Source of the DNA: Mytilus galloprovincialis
Taxonomy: Eukaryota; Mollusca; Bivalvia; Mytilida; Mytilidae
Reading direction: 5' to 3'
Length of the DNA stretch: 64,000 bases
NCBI RefSeq assembly: GCF_965363235.1
Contig: NC_134846.1
Location: forward strand, 72,700,724-72,764,723
Position numbers and translations under genes: made by a program. This document shows positions 552 through 61,559 of this stretch, one piece after another (the first letter of the stretch is position 1; each line of letters begins with the position of its first letter). Below the pieces are notes generated by a model. The model was not told the origin of the DNA, ran no database searches, and was given only the letters and a program-made list of their open reading frames with translations.

Positions 552-599
552 CTAAAATTAAGAAAAGAAATACAAAAAAGGATGATATTGGTTCTAATA

Positions 600-690
600 A
601 ACTCACTATAGATACCAGGTTTATATTTTTTTCACAACAGGCGCGCTTTTCGCCTATGAAAGACTCATCACACTTGAAAACAAATGAATA
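600..690 (-). repeat. Decayed retrozyme-family fragment
   Basis: The run ATAGATACCAGG, a mutated copy of the ribozyme core, then GACTCATCA matches the order of landmarks in the intact units near 31 kb. The catalytic positions are no longer intact. Confidence 0.45.
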
Positions 691-3890: not shown

Positions 3891-3959
3891 TTAACGTGTG
3901 AAGTTTATAAGTTAAACCACAATGTATAATTCAGGTGTATTATTTTTGTTATATTTTTG

Positions 3960-4090
3960 TACATATATACATCTGGTCCTCAGTGCTCTTCAACTTTGTA
4001 CTTGTTTTGGCTTTCGAACTTTTTTCATCTGAGCGTCACTGTTTAGTCTTGTGTGGACGAAACGCACGTCTGGCGTATTAGATTTTAAAC
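3960..4090 (+). repeat. Retrozyme-family fragment with dead hammerhead
   Basis: Contains TCCTCAGTGCTCTTCAAC, then a hammerhead-like block at 4033-4076 on the plus strand. Stem I halves GCGTCA and TGGCGT and stem II are present. The conserved CTGATGA is replaced by CTGTTTA and stem III is mismatched, so cleavage is not expected. Confidence 0.7.
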
Positions 4091-4394
4091 CTCATACCTT
4101 CTGTTAGCTCTTATTCGTGTGTGTCTCTGTCCTATATGTTCTCCCATTTATTTGTATTGTAGTCTTGTCATGTAATGTTGTCATTTCAATGTTATATTTA
4201 ACATTGCCATAAAAACGAGAGGTTTGGCATGCCACAAAACCGTTTCAACCCACCATTTTTTTCTTAATGTGTCATTGTTATATTATAGGTCGTTTCTGTG
4301 TGTGTTACATTTTAATGTTGTGTATCTGTTGTGTCGTAGTTTTCCTCTAATATTTGGTACGTTTTCCTCAGTTTTAGTTTGTAACCCGGATTTA

Positions 4395-15413: not shown

Positions 15414-18400
15414 CTGAAAGAAATGAAATGTAAAATACATTTTAACATGACCCTGGCTTCTGTATTCATATGTCAAAATAATTTAATACTTTTGGAATTG
15501 AATTATATGGTTTTTAGAAACAAGAGCTTTGATTTTTTTAGTATTTAATTTTGATTAATTCTTGTATGCAACAAACCTTATTTAATCATAAAATTATTTG
15601 ACAGCAAGCTATATCACTATTTGTGTATATTTTGTCCCATTTTGTTTGCAATAAATAAAACATCATTACTCCATCAATAGAAAACTTTCAACTATCATTC
15701 TTTTATGCGTGTGGATGAATAGAAGTTAGGGGTATATGTCAATGAGACCATAACCTAACAGCATAAAAATCACAAGACACCAATAATTTAACAAGTAGAT
15801 ATATTAATTCATTCTTATTCAGCCTAGATAAAATCGCTGCTATAAATGCAGCACACGTCAAACGATTCCTGACCCATGTCCTGTTACAAATGTAGAGATT
15901 AGACATTTGATATACGAGGGACGGCCAGAAGGGTTTTTTCCATACTAATAATTTATTTTCAACTATTGCTACTCATGCTTTTTGTTCCCGCTGACTTGGT
16001 TTCATTTTTGCACACATTAGTTTTTTCGAATTTTATGTTTCAAAATATTCATGCTCATCTTGTCTTATGCAAAGATATTTATTTTCAGTTCCTACCAGCC
16101 CCTACAAACAAAAATCAAATGGTCGCTCCGGTGTTAAAATATTGAAAACAACACGTTTAATAATTTGTTGCGACCGAAGCGCTTTTTTGGGATTTACCTT
16201 CATAAGGAACGCTCAAAGCCAAACATTTAAAATCCGAAGATGTATAAGTACCGAAACTGTTGAAGAGCTATATGTCAAAAATACAAAAAATAAATAGCCA
16301 AATTCATCTAAAGCCAACTTTGCCTGAGGGAGTTGAAACCTTAGTTTCTTAATAATTTCAGACACTTTTAGTAAAGTTTGTTAAATCATGTCATTACCAA
16401 AGTATTGACTACTGAGCTGATGATACCATCGGGGACTGACAGTCCACCAGCAGAGGTATTATTCAATGGGACACGACAATGTAATGAAAATTTTCCCAAA
16501 ATATATATTGATCATCTACAAACTGTAACAAACAAAAATCCTAAATTTGTAAACTTAAAGCCAAATTCCTGACCTGTGAATATCATGGCTAACACTAATC
16601 TTGACCTGTATTTAATGTCCGTAATCATATTTAAAACAGTATTAACTATAATGTAAAGATTTGAAGAAACCCCGTTGTTCAGATGAAGCAGTGCAAATTC
16701 TTACTGACTTCAATCGGACTCAATTGAAATAAGATATTCATGTTATTGTTCATAACATGTAAACAAAATAATTAGAGAAAAACGTTTATTATAATTTCCA
16801 GCTGATGATTCACCAAACCTTAATACACACATTTCTCGAACAGTAAATGACAACTTCGAAATATATTGAGATTTGTGACCAACAGGGACACAAAAAGGAA
16901 TACCCCAAATCATTTAAAGTTCAACATTCCTGATCAAGTTTGAACCTTAGCTTCTGAATAATTTTTTAATCTTTTAACGGCGAATTTTCAAATAGTTGCT
17001 ATTAGTTATGTTAGTGCTGAAGCACCGACTTTTATAAGATATTTACAAGTTATCTAAACATTGTGCATTGTTGATATATCATTTTTTATGTATTATCTGT
17101 AGACCAGAAATTGCGTATCTATTCGGTCGATGTATGTTAGCCGTGTTGGTTTTTTCTATCCTTTTTCGGCTTATGTTTTATTGTCCTTTCGTTTAGTATC
17201 TTCTTTTATCTGTTTCTTTTTTCCCTGAAACTTGAATAAAATTAAATTGATTTATGTTGAATAATATTTGTTTCATGAAAGTATTTGCAGTTCTTTAGAT
17301 CCCTAAATAATAGCTGTATTTTAAATATTGAAGAAAAGCTTTTTGAAACTTACAAGTCTTCCCCATATAGGTAAAAATCCTTTGTATAGAGCTAAGAACC
17401 CTTCTTGATTGACTGTCTTCACCAAACAATCCACTGATCCTGCATATAATTTACCTCTGTAATATAAACAGGAAAAAGAAATCACTGCTGCATTATATTA
17501 TGTTAAAAATCAACTCAATAAAGACATATACAAACTACTGCAAGATACAAACATATTTCTACTTTCTTCCATAATGTTTTATTGTTTTTCTTTGATGGCC
17601 CTTAATTTGTCTGAACATCTTGACCTATATATTACATTATATGATTTTGATTATTATTTTTCTTTTTTTTGGCTCCATAAAAAATATAATCACAAAAATA
17701 CTTCACTCCGAGGAAAAATCCCTAATCAAATGGCAAAAGCAAAAGCTCCAAAACACCAAACGAATGGACAACTATTGCCATATTCCTGACTTGGTACAGG
17801 CTTTTTCTTATTTAAAAAATGGTGGATTAAACCTGGTTTTATAGCTAGCTAATCTATCACTTGTATGAAACTTTGCATAAAATTCCACTACATCGACAAC
17901 GACGTGTGATTTTTAGTTAAAAGCTTCTTATGCATTTATGTATCTATACAACTTAAGCTTTTATTTTTTATATATATTCGAGCTCCTGGCGAAGAAAATC
18001 AAGGAATGTGGTACGGACGCACCAATTTATAACGTGCTATTTTCCATAAGTGGCACTGGGTCAATAAAGGCAACAGTAGCAAACCGATGTTCGAAATTCA
18101 TAAATCGGGTTTCATTAGCAAATTTGAACATAACTCAATTGTATTTTCTTTTCAAGCGGAATCTTTAGAGACACACACACGTCATCTTTAAAGAAGTCGC
18201 TCCTCACTATCCTACTTCCTGTCGATACATTTATTTTTGGCATTGCACAAGTCATGTCTTCTTTGACCTTTCATGACGTTAAAATATTAAATCCCGGGGA
18301 TGTGTTGATTTTAGCCTCTGATGCATGAATTTTTTATTATTAATTGTTTTGGCTTTTAACTAGCTGTTAGTAACTAGGTATCGCAGATCAAATTTATTCG

Positions 18401-21400
18401 TTCATAGTGAATTCATTTACGTTTTTTGATTGAGTTTGTGTTTTTTTTAATGTTTTAACGTTTAATCCCGCTGCAAATGTTTGCACCTGTCCTAAGTCAG
18501 GAATCTGATGTACAGTAGTTATCATTTGTTTATGTAATTTATACGTGTTTCTCATTTTTTTTATATAGATTAGACCGTTGGATTTCCCGTTTGAATGGTT
18601 TTACACTAGTTATTTTAGGGCCCTTTATAGCTTGTTGTTCGGTGTGAAACAAGGCTCCGTGTTGAAGGCCGTATCTTGACATATAATTGTTACTTTTATA
18701 AATTGTTATTTGGATGGAGAGTTGTCTCATTGGCACTCATGCCACATCTTCCTATATCTATACAATCAAAAACTGAGGGTAACACATCAAATATAAGAGG
18801 AGAACAACGACACAACAGAAACACTAAAATGCAACACACACAGAAACGAACTATAAGATAACAAAAGCCATTTTCCTGACTTGGTACAGGACATTTTAAG
18901 AAAAAAAGGTGGAACTGAACCTGGTTTTGTGGCTAGCCAAACCACCCGCTTTAACGGTTATGTGGAATATAACACTGATTTAAAAATGACAACAATACAC
19001 GACAGAACTACAATACAAATAAATGGAAATACATACAGGACAGAGAAACACAAAAATAACCAATACAATAGAACATTACGACAATAGTTATTAAAGGTAC
19101 CAGGCTTATAATTAAATACGCCAGGCCATTGCTAGTCGACGTTTAGTACCCCAGTGCATCATCAGCCCAGAAGTCATTGTTTCGGTACTGAAATGATTTT
19201 AACATACTTTCTGTATTATTTGTCGACATATTAAGAAATCAGTTAGAAAATAAGGTTACAACTTCCTTCATTTGGGTTGACCTTATATGAATGGGCCATT
19301 CTTTTAATAACCCTGTTGATATTCGTGTATTTATTCATCATCACCACTAACATTTTTGGTTTGAGCGTTCAGGAAATAAATAAATACAGAACAGCGCTTT
19401 GGTAGAATAAAATGTATAAAGTGTTATCCTGAGTACCATGAATCAACTCCTCTTCAACTTGACATGAACAAACCAACGGGTGACACTAATGGATGTCCCT
19501 TTGGTATCTTTCTTCCCTCTTTTACATATTATTCCGGAGCACAAAAGAATACACGAGGATTACGTCAGGTTTGTGTCTTTAGTTTTCTGTGTTATGTTTT
19601 ACAGTCTGTTGATTTTCTATTTTTAGTCTGTCTTTTCGACCAAACTGGTGTTTTTTTCGATATATGATTTTTTATTTTTACATTTTGTATCTGCTGTTGC
19701 ATTTTCTTTCAACTTGCAGTTATCCGTCCTTATACTATTAATCATAATAGCGGCGAACAAATGACATCATTTGAGTACCGAATTGTGTTTTGAAAGTCAG
19801 CAAGAATAAATAAAACTAAATATGGAAAAGTCTTTTGAAAAAATTTATATGTGATTGATAAAAATATAAAGGTTAATTCATGGTTCGTTTTACGATTAGA
19901 TCACACATTAACTTAGTACCTACTGCACATAATGATAAATACCTTCCGTTTTCTGATGGTTGATTCATAATTCTAGTTTTTATTACATCAGCTGGAGTCC
20001 CTAAGATGGCCATTGATAGTCCAGAACATGTACTAAAATGTTGATTATATTTTTCTAGTACTTTACAAAATCTACTGTAGTTGTTAAACGTATGTTAATT
20101 TAGATCACATGCTTTTTTTCATAACAAAGACCGACACATTGTCAAAAACGAACGCTTCGGGATTGGTAGATATATTGTTAAGTATTTTAGTACAAAAAAA
20201 GATAATTTCTTTTGAATCATGTTATATTGACAATATAGGCCTATACTTTGATAATGGATCATATCATACGACACATATTTTAATCTAGCCTACTATAAAC
20301 GTCACTAAAAGACACTGATATGGTAACTAAAGAATTTGCATTTCACCGTGAATCCCACTTAACCTCCTACATCATTCACAAAAGAGTTTATGATAGTACA
20401 AAACTCTCTTTTCACCCAGAAATTGTAGATGAAAAGGTTACCATCTCTATACTGAGCACCTAAATTTACAAAATCATCTCAAATGTGAATTACCAAATAA
20501 GACTTTTCAACGGATGTGTTCTTACACGAACAATATGACAGGTGCAAAATGTGGATCAGGATCTGCCTACCCCTCTGGAACACCTAAGATCATTCCACAC
20601 CTGGTTTTTGGTTGTGTTGATAAACAAGTGTTGCCTAAAAATATAGTCACTTATGAGATCGTAAGCACAAACGTTTAAATATCAGGTCCGCATTACTTTT
20701 AAATGAATGATATAGTTTTCTGTTTCGTGTTACCTCCTTAATTATGAGTCCATTAGTTCTGAGCATAGAAGTATGGGTAAACATTTAAGTGTCAGACTGA
20801 TTCGACATGACGAAACGTTACGATTTATTACTGTCAAGCTACTAATTAAGTATTAAGTCTTTCAATAGATCACGAATAAACAGACGAATAAAGTGATTAT
20901 ACGTTAACAGTAAATGGTGCATACTGAAGTCAGAGAAATTTAAGAAATGTAAACTTTTAAATCCGTTCTATTAATACATGTCGAGATTACACTCATGATC
21001 TCAGTGTTGACAGACAAGGGTAGAGTAAATTACATGACCATACTGGGTTTTAAATAATTTATTACCCGGATATTGTATGTGTCACCCAATTATCTGTCAA
21101 AGATGTATACTGTAAAACTCCATGTTTTACTGTATCATATGTTGCTAGATCTAAAAAAGTAAATTTTAAAAGTACGTATATGTTGGGTACTAGTATTAGA
21201 TGGGGTTTTATGGCTTATACAATCCATTATTCGCGAATAATTACAAAATGGACGGTGTCATGCGATCGAAATATGTTTCTGCAATTTCATTTAGCAAGAT
21301 CGCTAACATCCTCAAAACAGTTCAAATAAATTAAAAATACATTTCTAGCGGATGATTAACAGGAATTTTAAAAAGTGTTAATTACAAAAACAAACCAAAG

Positions 21401-24400
21401 TATTCTTACACAATTCCTTAAATTTATGCATCTGCGTTTAAGATGGTGTGATTTCTTACAAAAATGCTATCTACATATCATCTTGTAGAGTGAGCTAGAA
21501 ATCGGACGGATACTTCGTTGCCTGGAATGGTGAATAATTCCTCCTGACAGGACACTCGTCACCTATGATCAATCACGGATTTTGGTGGTATGCATATTGC
21601 ACAGTCGTTTTCATCAACTATATAGTATTCTATAGCGAAAGATATCAAGGTTACATTCAAAACACATACATCGAATGAAAACTGACATTGTACTTTAACG
21701 AAAATTAAAAACGGAAAGTCTCTTCACAAGATTAAACACATTAAATGAAAGGAACAACTGTGATATTCTTGACATGATGAAGCATTTCCTTCTGTAGAAA
21801 ATGATGGATTGAACCTGGTTTTAAAGGTACCTAGCCTTTCATTTTTGCGACATATTCAGTCGCATAGATTCAATTAACAATTAACATGATGTTAGAACAA
21901 CTAGAATCATATTTAAAAATGTCGACATTTGAGAAACAGCACTCAACATTGTGTTATAATCTTAATCAATATAAACGCAAACAACTATGTCACTTAAGAA
22001 AAACAAATATCCTGTAAGTGTTTCTCCCGTTTTAATGTAAAAAATAAAACAAAATACCACTAAAATTACAACACTCCGCGACTGGAATACAATACAAACA
22101 AACCCATGAACACACACTTCAGTCAATACATAAATTATACAATAATATACAACAACATGTAAACCACAGAATAGTAACGAACACCTCTCATGAATGTACG
22201 ACAGAACACTTAAAACGAATGATGTAAATATAAGAAAAATTAAACGAGAGGAAAATATTAATGTTACTAAGGCCTACACCCTTAATATAGCTATTTTGTA
22301 CCTTCTACCTGATATACACAAACAACCACGTTGGACAGAACAACTATTCCAACAGTCTACACAAGGCTAGTTATAGTATTTAAAGTATGATATACAAATC
22401 AATGCAATCATTTCAGTTAATAAAAACAAAACAGTAATGTACAGATGTTATTTAAAATGTTAAAAATTACAATATTAAACTCCATCTTCACATAACTGTA
22501 TTATTACCTCCCATATTGATTAGTGCTGCTCTCTGGACATTTGGCACAACGCCTCTATAGAGACCTTTAAAACCTTCCTCTGTTATTATCTTTCGAAATG
22601 CCTGAGTCGTACTTTTTACTCTAGAAAAAAACATTTATAATATGATAATGCTTAAGCAGGTGAACTGCCACTCGAACACAAAAACGTCAAAGCAAAGCTA
22701 GGATACAAAGGTATTTCTTACACAAATTAAAAGGACCCTAAAGAAAAATTTTATTCTGTTGAATTTACAAAAACCAACCTAAACCAAATTGCATTCATAT
22801 CATCATACTTTTGACTTTTTATGTTAACAAGCGTCTGACTATTCATCATAACATGCTTCCAAGAAAAACAGATCAATAATATGAAATAAACATGTGACTG
22901 TGAGAATTTGATTCTTATACACGTATAACATCTATTTAAATCGAATTTAGAAATGGAAATGGGCAGAATTTATTCTTTACCAATCGTTTCGGGAAATCAT
23001 TCTCCCAATGATACTGACATAAAAACAAACACGCAATATAAATTTTATATCAATTGTATAACAATTTTCCTCTCATTAAAAGCCAGTTAATTAATTAAAC
23101 AAAAGTTTAATGTACCTTGCTTATCTTGAAAAAAAATTATGAAACTTTTTGACTATTTACCGGATTTGTAATAACATGAGCAACAAGATGGGATCTGCTT
23201 ACCCTTCTGGAGCAGCTGAGATCAACCATAGTTTTTGATGGGATTCATGTTGCTTAGTCTTTAGTTTTATATGTTGTGTCTTGTGTACTATTATTTGTCT
23301 GTTTGTCTTTTTATTTTTAGCCATTGCGTTGTCAGTTTATTGTCGATCTATGAGTTTGGCTGTCCCTCTGGTATCTTTCGCCTCTCTTACATATCATTTC
23401 ACAACTTTTAGAACAAGTTCAAATTGAAGACTGCAACAAAATAGAAACCTTTTTATCAATAATATCATCATAATTCAAATTAGTTAATGAGAATATAACC
23501 AATACTCATGTTAATACCAAAATTTGTTATATATATAAAAGACTGGCTAAATCGGATTATCTTATTGTATCAGTAATATCATTTTTCTTGGTCAATTCAA
23601 TTCAATGTGATATTTTAACTGAAACTTATAAATTATATAAAACAGTCCCCGAGGGTATCACCAGCCCAGTAGTCAACACTTCGGTGTTGACATGAATATC
23701 AATAATGTGGTCATTTTTATAAATTTCCTGTTTACAAGACTTTGAATTTTTTGAAAAACTAAGGATTTTCTTATCCCAGGCACAGATTACCTTAGATGTA
23801 TTTGGCACAATTTTTTGGAATTTTGGATCCTCAATGCTGTTCAACTTTGTACTTGTTTGGCTTTATAAATATTTTGATATGAGAGTCACTGATGAGTCTT
23901 ATGTAGACGAAACGCGCGTCTGGCGTACTAAATTATAATCCTGGTACCTTTGATAACTAATTAGACCAAATGACAGGCACTTTTAAGGGAAAATAGCATC
24001 TGTAATAAGATATCAAATATTGGTGCATTTTTTTGTTTTGGATGGAGGCAGATGACGAGGGTGTAAATTTCAGATTGACGAATGGTTAAGATCATAATTA
24101 AGTTTAGATAATGTGTACTAAAACTACACTGAATATGGATAAAAATGATAAGGTGTGGATTGTTTGACATTGGGATGGTTTACTTACACAGATTAAATTA
24201 CATATGAACACGCAACAATAGGTCAACGTACGGTCTTCAACAATGAAGGTCTAAGTGAAATATTGTAATTTAAAAGCAATGCAAACGGAAAACCAGCGGT
24301 CTGATATACAATGTTACAAAACAATTAACTAGATAAGCATTAGACAGACACAAGCCAACGACAACCACTGAAATCAATATACTAACCAGGTATGTAGTCT

Positions 24401-29704: not shown

Positions 29705-30980
29705 TGTTAACAGTCACAGGTAAAAAAAACCAGGTATCTAAAGTGAGAAGCTACTCACTTGATGATACTACTAACCTTCTGTCTTTGTTGACAGTCTCTG
29801 GTTAAAAACTCGGGTATCTCAGGTTATACCCTATACTGAAAAAGCCAGTTTTTTCACCTCTGTAAAAGGTGATAAAATAAGATAAATAAATTAACTGAAT
29901 TTCCTTTCTTACTGTGTATTTTAAAAGGTACCCCGTTAAACCACTATGGTGGTCCAATCAACCAATATTTTTGCTGCCTGAAAAAGGAGGGAACATCTTA
30001 AACAATTTACTTGCTTAATTTTTATACAAATGCGAGTTTTTGATTTAATGTTCCAATAAACAAAATGTACCTAACTTTTATATGTCTAGGTCCTGTTTAA
30101 CTTTTCCAGTTTCAATTTTTGTATTATAAATACGCACTGTAAACTCAGCCAATTTTGTTAATTCGTGATGCTCAGTCTTTTATTTTCTGTTATGCTTTTG
30201 TACTGTTGTTTTTCTGGGTTTTTTTTTACCATGGCATTTTCGTCAGATTATTTCAACTTATCAGTTTGAATATTCTTTTGGTATTTTTCGCTTCATTTCT
30301 TTTTTATTTATCATATGGATAAAGACGATGAATAACATAATCGTTTTAATTCCTCTGATTGAGTAATGCATGTAGAAATATAAGTGTCTCATGTAGTCAT
30401 TTACGGCTGGCGATACAACAGAAATCTTGATTAAACGAATTAACGATAAGGTTCGATATCACATCTATATGCACTGATCTAATAAAGCACAGATGGATAG
30501 ACAAGTACTTATACACTTTTGTTAAATATCTTTTACGTCTCTTACTAGTTACGTTTATGTAGAAGCCACTCCAGCGACTGTAAATTAAGTGCTTCCTGAA
30601 ATGTTATTTTCGTTAAGAGGAGGGCCTGATTTTCCAACTACATTTTTGAGAAGCCTCATGACATATTTATGTCATCCTAACGTGTCTAATATAAGTCTTC
30701 GTAGCATACATTCCACGATGGAGTAACTGTTAGTTGTGTCCAAAACAATTAGTCGTGTTAACGGAGGATTTGTTGGTAAAAGGTACAACCGTTTTACTGA
30801 GTTTCGAATGGGAGCGCTGTAACATTTCTGGTAGTCTGTAATGAGACCAAATTTGTTAATGAAAATTATGAACCGTTTCATACAAGGAAAGTTGTATGTA
30901 TTTCTGTGTTGTTCTCCTGTGTTTTATCTATGTACATATACTCCTGGCAAAATTATATCCGAAGTTTAACTGATTTTTAA
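29705..30980. other. Upstream flank of UCP4-A; no further gene seen
   Basis: Only about 10 bases upstream of the ATG resemble copy B, so any promoter has diverged or a 5' UTR intron lies here. No coding exon was identified. Confidence 0.45.
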
Positions 30981-31022
30981 ATTTGTGAACAGTTATCAAA
31001 GGTACCAGGATTATAATTTAGT

Positions 31023-31066
31023 ACGCCAGACGCGCGTTTCGTCTACATTAGACTCATCAGTGACGC
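31023..31066 (-). ncRNA. Type I hammerhead ribozyme, unit 1
   Basis: On the minus strand: stem I GCGTCA/TGGCGT (six pairs including G-U), core CTGATGA, stem II GTCT/AGAC, GAAA, stem III ACGC/GCGT. The predicted cut lies between 31029 and 31028. All conserved core positions are present. Confidence 0.87.
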
Positions 31067-31379
31067 TCATACCAAAATATTCATCAATTCAAACAAGTAC
31101 AAAGTTGAAGAGCGTTGAGGATCCAAAACTCCAAAAAGTTGTGCCAAATACGGCTAAGGTAATCTATGCCTGGTGTAAGAAAAAATCCTTAGTTCTTCGA
31201 AATATTCAACGTTTTGCAAACAGGAAATTTATAAAAATGACTGCATTATTGATATTCATGTCAACACCGAAGTGTTGACTACTGGGCTGGTGATACCCTC
31301 GGGGACGAAACGTCCACCAACAGTGCAATCGACCCAGTGGTGTAAACAGTTATCAAAGGTACCAGGATTATAATTTAGT

Positions 31380-31423
31380 ACGCCAGACGCGCGTTTCGTC
31401 CACATAAGACTCATCAGTGACGC
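31380..31423 (-). ncRNA. Type I hammerhead ribozyme, unit 2
   Basis: Same layout as unit 1. Stem II closes with a U-G pair (GTCT/GGAC). The predicted cut is between 31386 and 31385, exactly 357 nt from the unit 1 cut. Confidence 0.87.
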
Positions 31424-31736
31424 TCATATCAAAATAGTTATAAAGCCAAACACGTACAAAGTTGAAGAGCATTGAGGATCCAAAACTCCCAAAAAATGTG
31501 CAAAATACGGCTACGGTAATCTATGCCTGGTGTAAGAAAAAATCCTTAGTTCTTCGAAATATTCAACGTTTTGCAAACAGGAAATTTATAAAAATGACCG
31601 CATTATTGATATTCATGTCAACACCGAAGTGTTGACTACTGGGCTGGTGATACCCTCGGGAACGAAACGTCCAGCAACAGTGAAATCGACCCAGTGGTGT
31701 AAACAGTTATCAAAGGTACCAGGATTATAATTTTGT

Positions 31737-31780
31737 ACGCCAGACGCTCGTTTCGTCTACATAAGACTCATCAGTGACGC
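31737..31780 (-). ncRNA. Type I hammerhead ribozyme, unit 3 (weakened stem III)
   Basis: The core is intact but stem III reads ACGA/GCGT, losing its closing pair. Cleavage between 31743 and 31742 is expected to be weaker. Confidence 0.82.
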
Positions 31781-32486
31781 TCATACCAAAATATTCATAA
31801 ATTCAAACAAGTACAAAGTTGAAGAGCGTTGAGGATCCAAAACTCCAAAAAGTTGTGCCCAATACGGCTACGGTAATCTATGCCTGGGGTAAAAAAATCC
31901 TTAGTTCTTCGAAAAATTCAAAGTTTTGTAAACAGGAAATTTATATAAAAATGACCTTATTATTGATATCCATGTCAACACCGAAGTGTTGACTACTGGG
32001 CTGGTGATACCCTCGGGAACGAAACGCCAACCAGCAGTGGGATCGACCCAGTGGTGTAAATAGTTATCAGAGGTACAAGATTTATAATTTTTCTTCGCAA
32101 ACATCATGCTGTCCACACTTTTCATAGAATTATATCCTCTTGTAGTTGCAGAGAAAACGGTAGATATAGATGTTATTCAAAGTAATCTCGTACAAATTGC
32201 AAGTTTTGAAATATACAATACATTGGTTAAACCAACCTTTTTATTAAAGTTCGTCAAATCGATTTCTATTCATCCTTAGTTATATCATCTAGTAAAATCA
32301 AAACGATTTTGTATCAACAACTAGCGTGAATATTATTTCGTCAAGTGTAAATCCATCAATGTACTGTCTATCTACCGATTCTGTCCTTTCAGTCTAACTG
32401 CTCCTATTGTTCTCGGGTTATTTCTCGTGTCAGAACGTCTTCCAGGTAGTTACCAAGAGGGAAATATCGCCTCTCGTATGGATGCG

Positions 32487-32570
32487 CATCTTTGTTAGCC
32501 AAGGGTTACGATCAACCCCGTTCCCTCCACGAGAACGGGAGTGGATCGTAACCCTTGGCTAGCGAAGATG
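32487..32570. repeat. Long near-perfect hairpin
   Basis: The 17-bp perfect outer stem pairs AGCCAAGGGTTACGATC (32497-32513) with its complement at 32544-32560. Ten more pairs extend it outward, including two G-U pairs in one RNA orientation. After a 3/4-nt internal loop an inner 7-bp stem CCCGTTC/GAACGGG (517-523, 533-539) closes on 9 nt. It lies between the retrozyme array and the Penelope fragment. Function unknown. Confidence 0.85.
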
Positions 32571-32967
32571 ATGGATGCGGTTTTTTCTGTCATACTATGT
32601 TCTATAGAAAGTTTCAAACTCGTCGTAGATGTCAACCAATGATGTACACTGCTGCTTTTGTACAAACAAACAAAAACTATTTTGTTGATTTAGCTGTTTT
32701 GGTAAAGGTATGACAAAGAACGGTTAATAATGTTGCCTTTTTCATAACTTTGGTCAAATTAAGTAAGCCAGGTAAAAGAATTAATCTTTGAAAAATAACT
32801 CAAAATTTAACATTTGGTTGTATTTTTGAATAGTTTCAGTGAAAGTTCATGCTTCGTGTAGAATATAATGTTTAGATAGTTTTACACCATTCCAAGTAAA
32901 GAGATATAGAAAGATGTGGTATGACTGCCAATGAGACAACTCTCCATCAAAGTCACAATTTATTCCA

Positions 32968-33583
32968 ATGGGAACAAACTGTGCCCCTCTACTTGCCGAC
33001 TTATTTCTTTATTATTATGAGGCTGACTTCATGCAGGAACTTCTTAGGAAGAAAGATAAGAAGTTAGCAATATCCTTTAACTCTACTTTCCGCTATATAG
33101 ATGATGTTCTTTCACTAAATAATTCAAAATTTGGTGACTATGTGGAACGCATCTATCCCATCGAGCTAGAGATAAAGGATACCACAGATACAGTTAAGTC
33201 GGCCTCATATCTTGACTTACATCTAGAAATTGACAATGATGGTCGGTTGAAAACAAAACTTTCCAATTTTGAACTTTCCATTTCTTAGTAGCAACATTCC
33301 AGCAGCACCTGCATACGGGGTATATATCTCCCAATTGATACAATATTCCCGTGCTTGCATTTCCTATCATGATTTTCTTGATAGAGGGTTGCTGCTCACA
33401 AGGAAGCTATTAAACCAAGAGTCCCAAGTGGTGAGGTTGAAATCATCCCTTCGTAAATTTTACGGACGCCATCACGAGTTGGTTGACCGTTATGGAATAA
33501 CCGTTTCACAAATGATATCGGATATGTTTTTACGTCGTAACTACAATCCCCTTCCCTTTCATGAATGTGACCTACCGAATTAG
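32968..33583 (+). pseudogene. Penelope-like element reverse transcriptase fragment
   Basis: The first frame (32968-33288) opens with MGTNCAPLLADLFLYYYEAD and carries the catalytic FRYIDD, then SASYLDLHLEIDNDGRLKTK. Near 33265 the frame shifts, with loss of a short segment. It continues at 33269-33583 with NFPFLSSNIPAAPAYGVYIS, DRGLLLTRKLLNQ and LRKFYGRHHELVDRYG. This matches the palm and thumb part of Penelope-like RT. The N-terminal RT motifs and an endonuclease are missing, so it is a 5'-truncated, frameshifted copy. Confidence 0.8.
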
Positions 33584-33805: not shown

Positions 33806-33869
33806 AAAGTTATTTTTTCTTCTTTAACTAATTGAAGTGAATAAACTCATCATAGATACCAGAATTCCC

Positions 33870-34195
33870 CAGTACACGGATGCCCCATCCGCACTAATAT
33901 TCTCTATGTTCAGTAGTGGACCGTGATAAAATGTGGGAAAATCTCTAATTTCGCATTAAAATTAGAAAGATCATATCCTAGGGAACATGTGTACTAAGTT
34001 TCAAGTTAATTGGACTTCAAATTCATAAAAACCTACCTTGACCAAAAACTTTAACCTGAAGCGGGACAGACGGACGGAGGAAGTGACGGACGCACGGACG
34101 GACGAACGAACGAACAGACGGACGAACGAACGAACGGACGAACGCACAGACCAGAAAACATAATGCCCATAAATGGGGCATAAAAAGAAGTTAAA
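33870..34195. repeat. Dispersed repeat family C with tetranucleotide expansion
   Basis: Contains ACATGTGTACTAAGTTTCAA, CTACCTTGACCAAAAACTTT, a (GGAC/GAAC)n run at 34065-34145, and the end hairpin TGCCCATAAATGGGGCA. Related copies: two tandem units at 48285-48710 and a reverse copy at 61560-61790. The flanks look like parts of a retrozyme-related unit, suggesting insertion into it. Confidence 0.65.
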
Positions 34196-34539
34196 AAGGC
34201 CAAATGTAGTACGAAGTTGAAGAGCATTGAGCACCAAAAAATTTTGCAAAATCCAAAAAATAATTGCCAAATAAAACTAAATGTCATTTTTTCCGGGGAA
34301 AGAAAATCCTTATAGTATTTCAAATAATTAAAACGTCTTTTCTGTTCCAACTTTATATAGCATTCGGCGCCTACAGTGACGTCATTTAAGTAATCGGTAT
34401 GACAATAGGAAAATTATTACTTATGAACGTCAGTAGCCAGTGATAATTTCGGACCATGCATATTTCCAATTAATGTAACCACAATGTCGTCCTCTTTTAT
34501 CCTAATTTGAAATAACCAAATAGGACTTTTTAGCGAACC

Positions 34540-35019: not shown

Positions 35020-35180
35020 TATAAATAAACTCATCATAGATACCAGGACTAAAATTTGTATATCCGCCAGACGCGCGTTTCGTCTACAAAAGATTCATCG
35101 GTGACGCTCGAATCCAAAAAAGTTAAAGTTAAAAAGGCCAAATAAAGTACGAAGTTGAAGAGCATTGAGGACCATAGTGT
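35020..35180 (-). repeat. Retrozyme-family fragment with mutated hammerhead
   Basis: The hammerhead-like block at 35064-35107 (minus strand) retains its stems and GAAA, but the core reads CCGATGA instead of CTGATGA. That change at a conserved core position should abolish cleavage. Confidence 0.7.
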
Positions 35181-35470
35181 TTCTTATGTCATGCCTGAAT
35201 AATTTATAGTTTTAGACATCACACATCCATTTAACATGAATAAGAATAAAATATAGAACACCGAAACTCGAAAAATAAATCATTTACTCATTAAATGTGT
35301 GACAACCTACAAAGACATTATAATACAATACGTCAAGTTATGTATCCAAATTGCTAGAATACATTTACCTATAAAGTTACTTTTTCTTAACTTGAAATAA
35401 GTTAACAAAAACAAACCAGGTGCTCCGCAGGGTGCAGCTTTATATATATCCTGGTACCTTTGATAACTAT

Positions 35471-36560
35471 TTATACGACCGCAGAAGTCGAACCCTGAAT
35501 AGTTTGGGCAAGTATGAACACAACATTCAAGCTTGATACAGCTCTGAATTTAGATTGCTATAAAATATTTGACATAACATGAGTTTCTGACACAAAACAA
35601 ATGTCAATTTCTTACAAATCTATTGCGCGATATTTTGCAATTACAGATTTCTTCTTTTAACTTTTCAAAAATTTGGAATTTGAAAAATTTGAAAAAAAGG
35701 AAAACATCTACCACCCCCCTTTTTTTGTAATGTGTCTAAAACCTGACATTTCTTAAAACATAATATACAAGTAGTGTAAGGGACGTAAATCCGAACATAC
35801 CCAACATTATATGTTAAATGTTTTAGAATAACCTCCCTTACACTGCTTTTAAATTGTCTTAATTGTCCATTGACCAGAAATACCTAGTTTTTCCCCTTTG
35901 TTGCCCCTAATTCCGCAACATTTTGAGCCATAACCCCCCCCCCCCCCCCCCCCCAAAGTCAATACTAACCATCCTTTTATGGTATGGAAACGTGTGGTTT
36001 TATTTCAGAAAGATTCATACACTTAAGCATACGTTATTGTTTGAAAACTACAAAAATGATTATTTTGGGCCCCCTTTTAGGCCCCTAAACTATTGGGACC
36101 ATAACCCGCAAAATCAATCCCAACCTTTTGTTTTTTTGTGATATTGAACCTTCTTGTAAAAAATTATAGAGATCTATACACTTAAACACAAGCTTGTTTT
36201 GGCCCATTTTTGACCCTTAATTCCTATACTGTTTTCCCAATAACCCCTTAAAATAAATCCCAACCTTCTACTTCAGAACAATTGAAATACTAAAACACAA
36301 CTTTTTGTCCTGAAACTAGATAAATGCTGTTTTTGGCCCCTTGGACCCCTAATTCCTAAACCTTTGGGACCATAACCCCCAAAATCAATCCCAAGCTTCC
36401 TTTAGTGGTTATAAACATTGTGTTAAAATTTTATTGATTTCTTTTCACTTATTCAAAAGTTATTATCCGGAAACAATCCTTCTTCGGACGACGCTGACGA
36501 CGACGACGACGTAATACCAATATACGACCAATTTTTTTAAAATTTTTACGGTGGTATAAA
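35471..36560. mobile_element. Non-autonomous element with internal repeats
   Basis: The ends TTATACGACCGC (35471) and, inverted, TTTATACCACCGT (to 36560) frame about 1.1 kb. The interior repeats blocks such as GGCCCCTAATTCCTAAAC, GGGACCATAACCCCCAAAAT and CAATCCCAACCTTC several times, with a poly-C run at 35935-35954 and a GAC run near 36490. It abuts a retrozyme-like end (CCTGGTACCTTTGATAACTA). I recognise the block sequence as common in bivalves. No protein is encoded. Confidence 0.6.
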
Positions 36561-39259: not shown

Positions 39260-40676
39260 AAAAACAAAGGAAAAACACAACATGCAGCAAACATCCAAAG
39301 ATAAAATAAGAAAAACTAGATAACAAAATGGAAAAGAAGAGACATGTTGTATTAAATCATGTCATGGAGTATCTGTAAGTAATGAATTCTTGACTTTAAA
39401 AAACTATGAACACACTTTCAAAAAGTGTTTAGAGGTACTTAAACGCTGCTATGATAATAATATCTACCAAAATGTTAAAAACTAAACAATGTTGTTCAAC
39501 CATTTTAACCTTTATAAAGGGAAAAAAATAAGAACATACTTTATCCAAATAGTTATCATAAAAATATTGAGAACGCTGTACTGTTTTGTTCATGATGTTG
39601 TAGTGCACAATGAATAATTGTATATAAAGTTACAATAACAATCTTATCAAAGAAAAAAATGTATGCCGACTTCAAACACGTACTTCTTTCAATCAATGGG
39701 TATATCAATTTGTCAAATCAAAGCTAGTTGAGAAAAATTTAAAGCTAAAAGAGTTTAAAAAAGGGTTAAATTCCATTCACCTATTTCATTGTTTTATTCC
39801 ATATCAATACTGCAGGTTTTTTTTACAAGACGACTATGTAGTAATGAAGCAACGTTTTGGTAGAATGTACTTAAAATTTTAAAGTGAAATATATAGATAT
39901 ATATCTTATTCAAAAGTATAAATCAATTGTACTGTTATGTTAAGCTGCTAAAACTATTCACAAAAATTTGGCCATCGTATAAATAAAATATAATGTAAAT
40001 AATAAATTCATAACTATATTAATGCAAAAACAAAATATATACAAAAATATCCTATTTATTTAATGCTCAAATTTTTTTTGACCTGAGTATAAAAATACAT
40101 CAACTATAATAACATATGCCAAAAAGATGTTAAATTAAATTGTTTATATGTCTTATATGCCCATTATATACAAATCAAGGCATGTGTCATGATTGCCCTT
40201 AGCAAAGCAATGATCTACCAGAATCCAAAATGAAGTGGATGTAAGCAACTATAGTGTCCAATGGAATATTGCAAAGAGCTAGTTATAAAGCAGAGTTCAA
40301 GGACTTAAATATATTCACTACTGATTGCATGAATCCAACGAAGGAACCCAAAAACATATTTAAATCTTTAAAAAAGATTATTAACATTGCTATGATGCAT
40401 AAGGTTTTTACAGGAATTTGCAGGCTACATATAAAACACTTAGAACCATTCATTTAAATATATTACCTTATTTTATAAATCAATTTTGTCATGAAATATT
40501 AGAATTTCAATTCTGTCATATTAAAAGCAAGCTTGGAAACAGAAATGTTTCTGATATTGTAATCACAATACAATTACCGGAAGTCAAACTTTCAATGGAC
40601 ACCTAAACTAACTTAAACATTGTAGTTTATTTGGCATTGTAATTTTTTATTTATTCAAGCACTTTAATGAATAAAT
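39260..40676. other. No gene seen
   Basis: AT-rich. Open frames at 40254-40457 and 40418-40606 overlap and have no recognised domain. Confidence 0.45.
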
Positions 40677-40910: not shown

Positions 40911-40996
40911 CTTTTGGCAAAATGTTTAGGAATTTTGGTCCTCAATGCTCTTCAACTTCGTACCTTATTTGGCATTTTTAACTTTTTTGGATTCGA

Positions 40997-41040
40997 GCGT
41001 CACTGATGAGTCTTTTTTAGACGAAACGCACGTCTGGAGT
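40997..41040 (+). ncRNA. Type I hammerhead ribozyme motif
   Basis: Core CTGATGA and GAAA are intact and stem II is GTCT/AGAC. Stem III ACGC/ACGT has one terminal mismatch, and the stem I half TGGAGT weakens pairing. Confidence 0.8.
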
Positions 41041-41359
41041 ATTTACAATATTTAGTCCTGGTATCTATGATGAGTTTATCTACTACCACTGGGTCGATGC
41101 CACTGCTGGAAGAGATTTATTTCCCTGAGGGTATCACCAGCCAAGTAGTCAGCACTTTTGTGCTGGCATGAATTATCATTGATATGGTTACATTTATAAA
41201 TTAACTGTTTACAAACATTTGTAATTGTTTTAATACTAAGGCTTTTCTACCTCAAGCATAGATTACCTTAGCTGTATTTGGCAAAACTTTTATGAATTTT
41301 GTTCCTCAATGCTCTTCAACTTCGTACTTTATTTGGCATTTTAAACTTTTTTGGATCGA

Positions 41360-41403
41360 GCGTCACTGATGAGTCTCTTTTAGACGAAACACGTGTCTGG
41401 CAT
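41360..41403 (+). ncRNA. Type I hammerhead ribozyme motif with compensated stem III
   Basis: Stem III reads ACAC/GTGT in place of ACGC/GCGT, a double change that keeps full pairing. The core is intact. Predicted cleavage follows C41397. Confidence 0.82.
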
Positions 41404-41708
41404 ATTTACAAAATTTAGTCCTGGTATCTATGATGACTCTATTTACTACCACTGGGTCGATGCCACTGCTGTTGGAGATTTATTTCCCCGAGCGTATCAC
41501 CAGCCCAGTAGTCAGCAGTGGAATTATCATTGCTATGGTTACATTTATAAATTAACTGTTTACAAAAATTTATTTTTTAAATACTAAGGCTTTTCTACCT
41601 CAAGCATAGATTACCTTAGCTGTATTTGGCAAAACTTTTAGGAATTTTGTTCCTCAATGCTCTTCAACTTCGGTCTTTATTTGGCATTTTGAACTTTTTT
41701 GGATTCCA

Positions 41709-41753
41709 GAGTCACTGATGAGTCTTTTTTTAGACGAAATGCGCGTCTGGCGT
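41709..41753 (+). ncRNA. Type I hammerhead ribozyme motif
   Basis: The core is intact. Stem III ATGC/GCGT pairs through one U-G, and the stem II loop is longer by one T. Predicted cleavage follows C41747. Confidence 0.8.
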
Positions 41754-42290
41754 ATTAACAAAATTTAGACCTGATATCTATGATGAGTTTATTGTAGACG
41801 AAATGTTTGTCTAGCATATTTTTTAGCCTCGTATCTTTGACGAATTTATTTTCAACTTGACCGAGAACATATAATTTTCAACGTCTTATCACAGCAGGTT
41901 GTTAAATTAACATTTGAATACCACAACCATGAACTTCAACCTACATTTTTGTAACTGAAAATATTCAAACAGGCCATACATAATAGCAATATATATAGGT
42001 GTATATTTGCATTCTAAATTAATAAGAATTGGCTGAATGGTAATATCAATAAAAACCAAAAGTCACTCTTTTGGAGATAGATCCTTATTGTTCCTAACAA
42101 AACATCAAAGTCTCATTGATGACATAAGGTAAATAAACACTTTTTACATGTTACTGATTCATTGTGAAGAAAACAATGTCAAAGAAGAGGCGAGTGTTTG
42201 TTCTATTCATCTGTATTATGCCTGACAAATGAAGGAGTAAGTACAAGTCATTATTTGCTCATTTTAAAAGAGGCCTTTTGCTACCACGTT

Positions 42291-42710
42291 TCATATCAGC
42301 ACTTACTTTAGTATTATATGTGTAGTAGGGATAAGCCTATGAAATATGTCACCATTTCAAGCATAATGGTATATGATAAGGTTGAGAAACTGAGGTGAAA
42401 TACATGACAACGTTTATTGATTCATAACACATTTCACATCAGCACTTAGTAATGTGTGGTATGGATATGCTTAAAGCCAATGGAATAGGTCACCATTTCA
42501 AAAATAATGATATATGATAAGGTTGAGAAACAGGTAATATATACATGTTTGACAACGCTTATTAATTCATAACACATTTCACATAAGCACTTACTTTAGT
42601 TATGTGTGGTAGGGATAAGCCACTGATATAGGTCAACATTTCAAGCATAATGATATATGATATGGTTCAGAAACTCAGGTGAAATATATGACAACTCTTA
42701 TTGATGAAAC
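42291..42710. repeat. Three ~144-bp tandem units
   Basis: Units start TCA(T/C)AT(C/A)AGCACTTA at 42291, 42434 and 42579. Each contains AATATGTCACCATTTCAA-like sequence and ATATGATAAGGTTGAGAAAC. No coding potential. Confidence 0.8.
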
Positions 42711-61195: not shown

Positions 61196-61297
61196 ACTAT
61201 TTGGGTACTCTAATAACTACTCAAAACTCACGGAAATTACACTAAAACTATTTGGGTACTCTAATAACTACTCAAAACTCACGGAAATTACACTAAA
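61196..61297. repeat. Perfect 51-bp tandem duplication
   Basis: ACTATTTGGGTACTCTAATA opens two identical 51-bp units at 61196 and 61247, within GRB2 intron 1. Confidence 0.95.
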
Positions 61298-61559
61298 ACT
61301 ATTTACAAAGTCAGTGAAATACTGCTGATTTGGTAACCAAAATTTATTCGATCTATATGAGACAATAAAATAATAGATTGATTTTGACGCATCACAGTAA
61401 TTTTTTCCTGAAATGACACTAACGACAATTATTTTAGACCTCTGACAAGTCACGATAAGGTTATTTTGACAAATCACTGTAAAATTTTAAGCAATTTGAG
61501 GCTTACGGTAGCCAAAAAGGACGTTTGACGGTAAAGGGCATTAATACCCTCATATATCA

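Follow-up and report, generated by a model that had tools for sequence, protein, structure and literature searches.

Tandem units with predicted type I hammerhead ribozymes in a 64-kb window of the Mytilus galloprovincialis genome: a probable ageing retrozyme insertion and a majority 3' end displaced from the cut

What kind of element is the tandem array near the middle of this stretch of the Mytilus galloprovincialis genome, and could its RNA cut itself and give rise to circles? To answer this question, we analyzed the whole stretch, a window of 64,000 nucleotides (assembly GCF_965363235.1, contig NC_134846.1, positions 72,700,724 to 72,764,723), in which three near-identical 357-bp units, each encoding a hammerhead ribozyme (HHR), had been proposed to form a retrozyme array. 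Using Tandem Repeats Finder, we detected 3.1 copies with a period of 357 bp and 92% matches at 30984-32090, arranged as follows.

30984 to 32090, minus strand (the hammerhead sense): array A, three 357-bp candidate retrozyme units and a partial fourth of about 29 nt
30991 to 31347, minus strand: unit 1
31348 to 31704, minus strand: unit 2
31705 to 32061, minus strand: unit 3

The array and its period of 357 bp are real, but the near-identity of the units did not quite hold. In a gap-free alignment, 338 of 357 bases are identical between units 1 and 2; identities number 334 for units 1 and 3 (21 mismatches, 4 gap positions) and 326 for units 2 and 3 (29 mismatches, 4 gap positions), a divergence of 5-9%. 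The G+C content is low, below 50% (0.355 for 30001-32000, a segment covering most of array A). No open reading frame of at least 110 amino acids (stop-to-stop) overlapped 30984-32090 or the second array, array E, presented below.

We then analyzed the ribozymes themselves. On the minus strand, each unit of array A carries the elements GCGTCA, CTGATGA, stem II, GAAA, stem III, GTC and TGGCGT in this order. The spaced core (CTGANGA-13 nt-GAAA-5 nt-GTC) was found on the minus strand at 31029-31060, 31386-31417 and 31743-31774, and three more times elsewhere in the window, that is six occurrences compared to none in 100 dinucleotide shuffles. Of the seven cores in all, the one at 41715 has an additional nucleotide ahead of GAAA, and the other six keep the full spaced pattern. 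With the type I covariance model (RF00163), all three units gave a match, with E-values from 2.2e-06 to 1.4e-04 in a search of 1251 bases, but with scores under the gathering score of 34. The corresponding features are given here.

31023 to 31066, minus strand: type I hammerhead of unit 1, with the core pattern, RF00163 33.3 bits, predicted cut after the C at 31029
31380 to 31423, minus strand: type I hammerhead of unit 2, with the core pattern, RF00163 33.9 bits, predicted cut after the C at 31386
31737 to 31780, minus strand: type I hammerhead of unit 3, with the core pattern and an imperfect stem III, RF00163 28.5 bits, predicted cut after the C at 31743

Over the whole window, a search of Rfam at an E-value of 1 returned six RF00163 matches (starting at 31380, 23883, 31023, 41360, 41709 and 31737) and one RF00008 match (40994), for a total of seven HHRs in 64 kb. 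A default Rfam scan of the window is empty because all of these scores are below the gathering scores. The predicted cuts, after C17, are exactly 357 nt apart, and the position originally given for unit 1 (31028/31029) was correct. With the spaced core and the RF00163 match present in all three units, the full minus-strand hammerhead layout was confirmed. Overall, these sequence features suggest that the RNA of array A probably cuts itself through a hammerhead ribozyme.

Related copies were then located in the 64-kb window by BLAST and with a profile of the units. Using permuted BLAST queries, and counting each array as one place, we found the element at 13 places, on both strands. The copies other than array A are listed below.

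597 to 670, minus strand: fragment J, 5'-truncated, ending at the common 3' point described below
3955 to 4112, plus strand: fragment F, 5'-truncated, with a damaged HHR core
16109 to 16459, minus strand: divergent relative H, with about 62% identity along its length and without an Rfam hammerhead match
19083 to 19196: copy I, a 3' piece on the minus strand next to an inverted piece that covers unit positions 23-92
23645 to 23958, plus strand: single copy D, 5'-truncated, sharing 92% identity with unit 1, with an HHR at 23883-23926 (RF00163, 33.4 bits)
33843 to 34339, minus strand: subfamily E fragment consisting of two pieces, 33845-33866 (weak, profile E-value 0.91) and about 34158-34339
35025 to 35174, minus strand: fragment G, 5'-truncated, nearer to subfamily E, with an altered HHR core (CCGATGA)
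35443 to 35479, plus strand: very short 3'-end piece
40612 to 40648: 37-nt piece
40913 to 41849, plus strand: array E, a second subfamily about 75% identical to A, with two full units and partial pieces at both ends
41085 to 41442 and 41443 to 41792, plus strand: full units of array E (358 and 350 bp)
40994 to 41032, plus strand: HHR of array E, best match RF00008
41360 to 41403 and 41709 to 41753, plus strand: HHRs of array E, RF00163
57729 to 57840, minus strand: decayed fragment K, weak (BLAST E-value 0.001, profile 5e-05)

In copy I, the 3' piece (19083-19124) begins at the HHR cut position or within 1 nt of it, which, in this single case, is the start expected from run-off at a 5' end made by cleavage. 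The same piece is joined to an inverted and more divergent piece (19127-19196), an arrangement, again a single case, which resembles a 5' inversion. Two further repeats of the window were recorded: another tandem array at 42285-42702 (period 143, 2.9 copies, 75% matches) and a 51-bp tandem duplication at 61196-61304 (2.1 copies), which is probably recent because its matches are 100%.

Outside the window, a blastn search for relatives of two units among phages and plasmids found none, and a search of a genome-contig collection with the HHR pattern gave no match. Viral contigs carrying the HHR pattern were considered as retrozymes and rejected: all 16 carry a bacterial tmRNA gene, and the similarity to the unit, detected by BLAST in 6 of the 16, lies in the hammerhead stretch only. 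As a separate observation, in 16 of 16 of these IMG/VR contigs (L001-L016, for example L014:3980-4022) a hammerhead-like motif is found 57-894 nt downstream of a permuted tmRNA gene of the alphaproteobacterial type, on the strand of that gene. At gathering thresholds a hammerhead was found in 0 of the 16, and L014, the only contig scored lower, gave 30.8 bits for RF00008 against a threshold of 48.5. This motif might trim the tmRNA transcript; a literature search, within the text that it covers, returned no description of a hammerhead beside a tmRNA gene.

Tandem type I HHRs, unit size and dispersed related copies all back the proposal of a retrozyme array, and we compared these features with the known systems. 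Metazoan non-LTR retrozymes occur in many copies per genome and lack LTRs, a primer-binding site and a polypurine tract. They are tandem repeats of about 150-450 bp with a G+C content below 50%, with a type I hammerhead in every unit in the same register and without a protein-coding region. Likewise, array A has 3.1 copies of 357 bp and the second array units of 358 and 350 bp, each unit of array A has its hammerhead in the same register (at 28.5-33.9 bits, below the gathering score of 34), and array A has no open reading frame of at least 110 amino acids. The closest system is that of M. galloprovincialis itself (Cervera and de la Peña, 2020; PMC7229834). According to the part of this article available to us, the species has about 5000 type I HHR copies, which form two similar families and mostly sit in repeats of 350-390 bp, and its retrozyme self-cleaves in vitro, more slowly than that of the coral, and gives abundant circular RNA. 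The repeats described there resemble ours in size (357, 358 and 350 bp here), in their tandem type I HHR units, in their two similar subfamilies and in their low G+C, a comparison made by description and not by sequence. By analogy with this report, it is plausible that the locus of array A can yield 357-nt circles.

Other systems share part of these features, as far as the accessible portions of the articles describe them. The axolotl retrozymes and newt satellite repeats (PMC7229834) are also, by description, 330-350-bp tandem units with a type I HHR, a weak stem III and a palindromic loop, but cleavage of their HHRs is poor in the monomer and much better in the dimer. According to PMC7229834, plant LTR retrozymes have a ribozyme-bounded unit and a circular RNA intermediate as well, but with a type III HHR, LTRs, a PBS, a PPT and circles of 600-800 nt. 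The minimal HHRs of Penelope-like elements and Terminons (PMC7761336) are of type I, occur in animal genomes and are in tandem in Penelope-like elements; in contrast to ours, they are described without helix III or loop-loop contacts and as belonging to autonomous retrotransposons. A literature search with four sequence words of the window returned no paper.

Since the 3' end of a linear monomer would coincide with the cut, the position of the 3' ends bears on how the copies were made. We mapped these ends by BLAST with two-unit queries of A1, A2 and E1 permuted by 180 positions, which avoids a bias toward the unit start, and expressed them as unit coordinates in the hammerhead sense, with the cut after position 319 in A. 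In 9 of the 13 places, the copy ends between unit positions 352 and 12, an arc of 18 nt, and this common 3' end is located about 40 nt beyond the HHR cut (range among the nine, 33-50 nt). Such a clustering of 9 of 13 ends within 18 nt was obtained in 0 of 200,000 random draws. By contrast, the 5' starts are scattered from position 23 to 333, with at most 3 of 13 in any arc of 18 nt. The four places without the common 3' end are H, whose end depends on the query, 34158-34339, the inverted piece 19127-19196 and the 37-nt piece 40612-40648. The 13 ends were taken from BLAST rows, in which the queries differ by a few nucleotides on an end, and K (57729) is weak; an earlier 3'-end test had used 10 hand-listed ends, one of which (33845) came from a profile whose end is the unit end. 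Target-site duplications, which in metazoan non-LTR retrozymes are longer than 4 bp when present, were sought at 9 copies: none did better than its shuffled left flank, the best case being equalled in 62 of 300 shuffles.

The displacement of the common end from the cut suggests that priming takes place within a circle or a multimer, and a multimer alone would also do. Together with the scattered 5' ends, it agrees with reverse transcription of a circular or multimeric RNA that begins at one fixed internal position. We tentatively propose, with slightly less than even confidence, that retrozyme copying in this animal starts at one defined point within the ribozyme-made circle or multimer, about 40 nt beyond the cut, and that the terminal segment (approximately ...CCTGGTAYCTWTGATRA-T, read by eye from the aligned copies) would be the recognition or priming site for the partner reverse transcriptase. 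A common 3' end is not described in the available text of PMC7229834, whose main text has no words beginning with 'truncat' or 'junction', and among the titles and starts of abstracts listed in literature searches on retrozymes and hammerhead ribozymes we found no report of a fixed retrozyme 3' end.

The differences among the units inform on the history of the array. In an alignment of units 1-3 with copy D, the 12 sites that split two against two fall into four runs, and as few runs were obtained in only 872 of 200,000 shuffles. Units 1 and 2 agree at four sites (alignment columns 134-177), units 1 and 3 at six (columns 213-282), and unit 1 joins D at two further sites (44 and 194). Without these two unit 1-D sites, and with an adjacent pair counted once, the separation gave p = 0.016. 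The units are probably mosaics, through conversion, unequal exchange or template switching. As probable mosaics that differ by 5-9%, they suggest that the array did not arise as a clean copy of a single circle, and the copying of a single circle is not directly visible here.

Since stem III was described in the original prediction as having no real loop, cleavage had been expected to need the dimeric form. The stem III octamer ACGCGCGT could fold as 2 bp with a GCGC tetraloop or else base-pair with the octamer of another copy. Units 1 and 2, D, G and the 41360 copy have a perfect palindrome here and the 41709 copy has one that includes a G-U; the palindrome is imperfect in unit 3, F, J, K and the 40994 copy. 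In unit 3, ACGAGCGT replaces ACGCGCGT and the perfect stem III is lost. The double hammerhead was the energy optimum for A1/A1 (-29.9 kcal/mol) and A1/A2 (-29.7 kcal/mol), compared to -18.8 and -18.6 kcal/mol for two separate monomers, and a gain as large as that of A1 was found for 3 of 300 random octamers. In the other 8 of 10 pairings, however, it was not the predicted optimum. In addition, a cloned genomic repeat from mussel cleaved as a single unit in co-transcriptional assays, with a kobs of about 0.1 per min (PMC7229834), and most invertebrate type I HHRs self-cleave as monomers (PMC7761336), both as stated in the accessible parts of these articles. Because this cloned repeat cleaves and the double hammerhead is optimal for some pairings only, the dimer requirement was not upheld: in these folding models a dimer would be favourable for some units of array A, and a need for it is not supported as stated.

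Other folding analyses gave the following results. The isolated HHR fold was the minimum-energy structure in 0 of 7 elements, in models that neglect tertiary contacts. The circular fold of five units added little stability relative to 60 shuffles, with z from -0.1 to -1.8 in the HHR sense and from -0.4 to -3.0 on the other strand. On 11 copies of the HHR region, RNAalifold predicted a 6-pair hairpin over the cut site and not the hammerhead, with one double change, in fragment J. Among 14 stem pairs of the HHR in 11 sequences, two (one in stem I, one in stem III) have a double change, which was matched by 137 of 500 shuffles; as the pair changes are not above this control, these 11 sequences do not test covariation. 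For the conserved hairpin region (about unit positions 1-96), RNAalifold on seq­uences (seven in number) gave weak consensus structures of -6.9 and -3.6 kcal/mol for the two strands, and pairs changed on both sides numbered 2 of 18 in the HHR sense and 0 of 18 on the other strand.

Overall, we consider that array A is very probably a metazoan non-LTR retrozyme inserted in tandem and now ageing. In its favour are the array with its period, the HHR match in every full unit of array A, the seven HHRs in 64 kb, the dispersed copies on both strands and the common 3' end. Counting against it are the HHR scores below the gathering scores, the target-site duplications no better than shuffled flanks, the folding and pair-change results given above, the divergence and mosaic pattern of units 1-3, and the four of 13 places that lack the common 3' end. 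Compatible with this reading is that of a satellite-like relic, in which a retrozyme-derived unit would now be changing by unequal exchange and gene conversion, neither transcribed nor mobile. The divergence of the units (5-9%), their mosaic pattern (12 informative sites in four runs, 872 of 200,000 shuffles) and the imperfect stem III of unit 3 all speak for it, but the full spaced pattern is kept by six of the seven HHR cores, with one extra nucleotide in the seventh, and the single 5'-truncated dispersed copies require a mobile stage at some time. We regard the relic as a real possibility, on balance somewhat doubtful. That the hammerheads belong to a Penelope-like element and not to a separate retrozyme is suggested by a reverse-transcriptase fragment at 32935-33285, about 0.85 kb from array A. 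Its match to RVT_1 is sub-threshold (E-value 0.01, 16 bits against a cut-off of 29.6), and among its 6063 protein relatives at an E-value of 0.001 or better, the best 120 have no informative names. The HHRs of Penelope-like elements lie within the terminal repeats of an element that encodes a Penelope-type reverse transcriptase. However, no open reading frame of at least 110 amino acids overlaps either array and the units occur elsewhere in the window without such a fragment; we regard this origin as very unlikely.

Still less credence is given to ribozymes on both strands with a viroid-like, RNA-to-RNA replication, an extremely improbable reading in our view. The plus strand of unit 1 does have CTGGTGA-13 nt-GAAACGTC, and retrozyme RNAs of negative polarity are mentioned in the accessible text of PMC7761336. 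Nevertheless, 190 of 2000 shuffled 357-mers have a core of 5/6 or better with an exact GAAA at 6-20 nt, and so do 52 of 308 real 357-mers from other parts of the window. GAAA does not occupy the corresponding alignment columns in subfamily E, H or I, and by inspection the plus-strand stem I does not pair. A second, plus-strand ribozyme was rejected as being at chance level in both the shuffled and the real-sequence controls and, from sequence alone, as having a T-C closing pair in its stem II. Beside array A, we also observed that the reverse-transcriptase-like fragment belongs to an abundant repeat family and extends over 32935-33583 in two overlapping frames. Downstream of the array, an inverted repeat was noted by eye at 32485-32565 (CCAAGGGTTACGATC ... 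GATCGTAACCCTTGG), with a weak match to MIR169 (31.9 bits against a gathering score of 80).

For the retrozyme insertion, we propose the following cycle, which is inferred. Host transcription of the minus strand would give a multimeric RNA, in which the type I hammerheads would cut after each GUC, releasing 357-nt monomers that a host RNA ligase would close into circles. The circle or the multimer would then serve as template for the reverse transcriptase of an autonomous non-LTR element, with a fixed internal start about 40 nt beyond the cut (approximately ...CCTGGTAYCTWTGATRA-T), and copying that sometimes goes round more than once would yield both tandem arrays and 5'-truncated single copies. 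What we observed in this window are the units, the ribozyme cores with their exact period, the two subfamilies, the majority 3' end with scattered 5' ends, and the mosaic units. This kind of element is already known; the new points are local, namely the two subfamilies side by side, the majority 3' end displaced from the cut and the mosaic units.

The mosaic units are an ordinary possible source of the heterogeneous circles reported in mussel. As for the 3' end, the partner enzyme and the priming site of animal retrozymes are presented as open questions in the available text of PMC7229834 and PMC7761336, the latter stating that metazoan retrozymes have no conserved motif that helps to deduce the partner. 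If the proposed role of the terminal segment is true, the common 3' end would be such a motif. A fixed 3' end off the cut separates a model in which linear monomers end at the cut from one in which circles or multimers are copied from an internal start, and it would provide a tag for seeking an autonomous element with the same tail.
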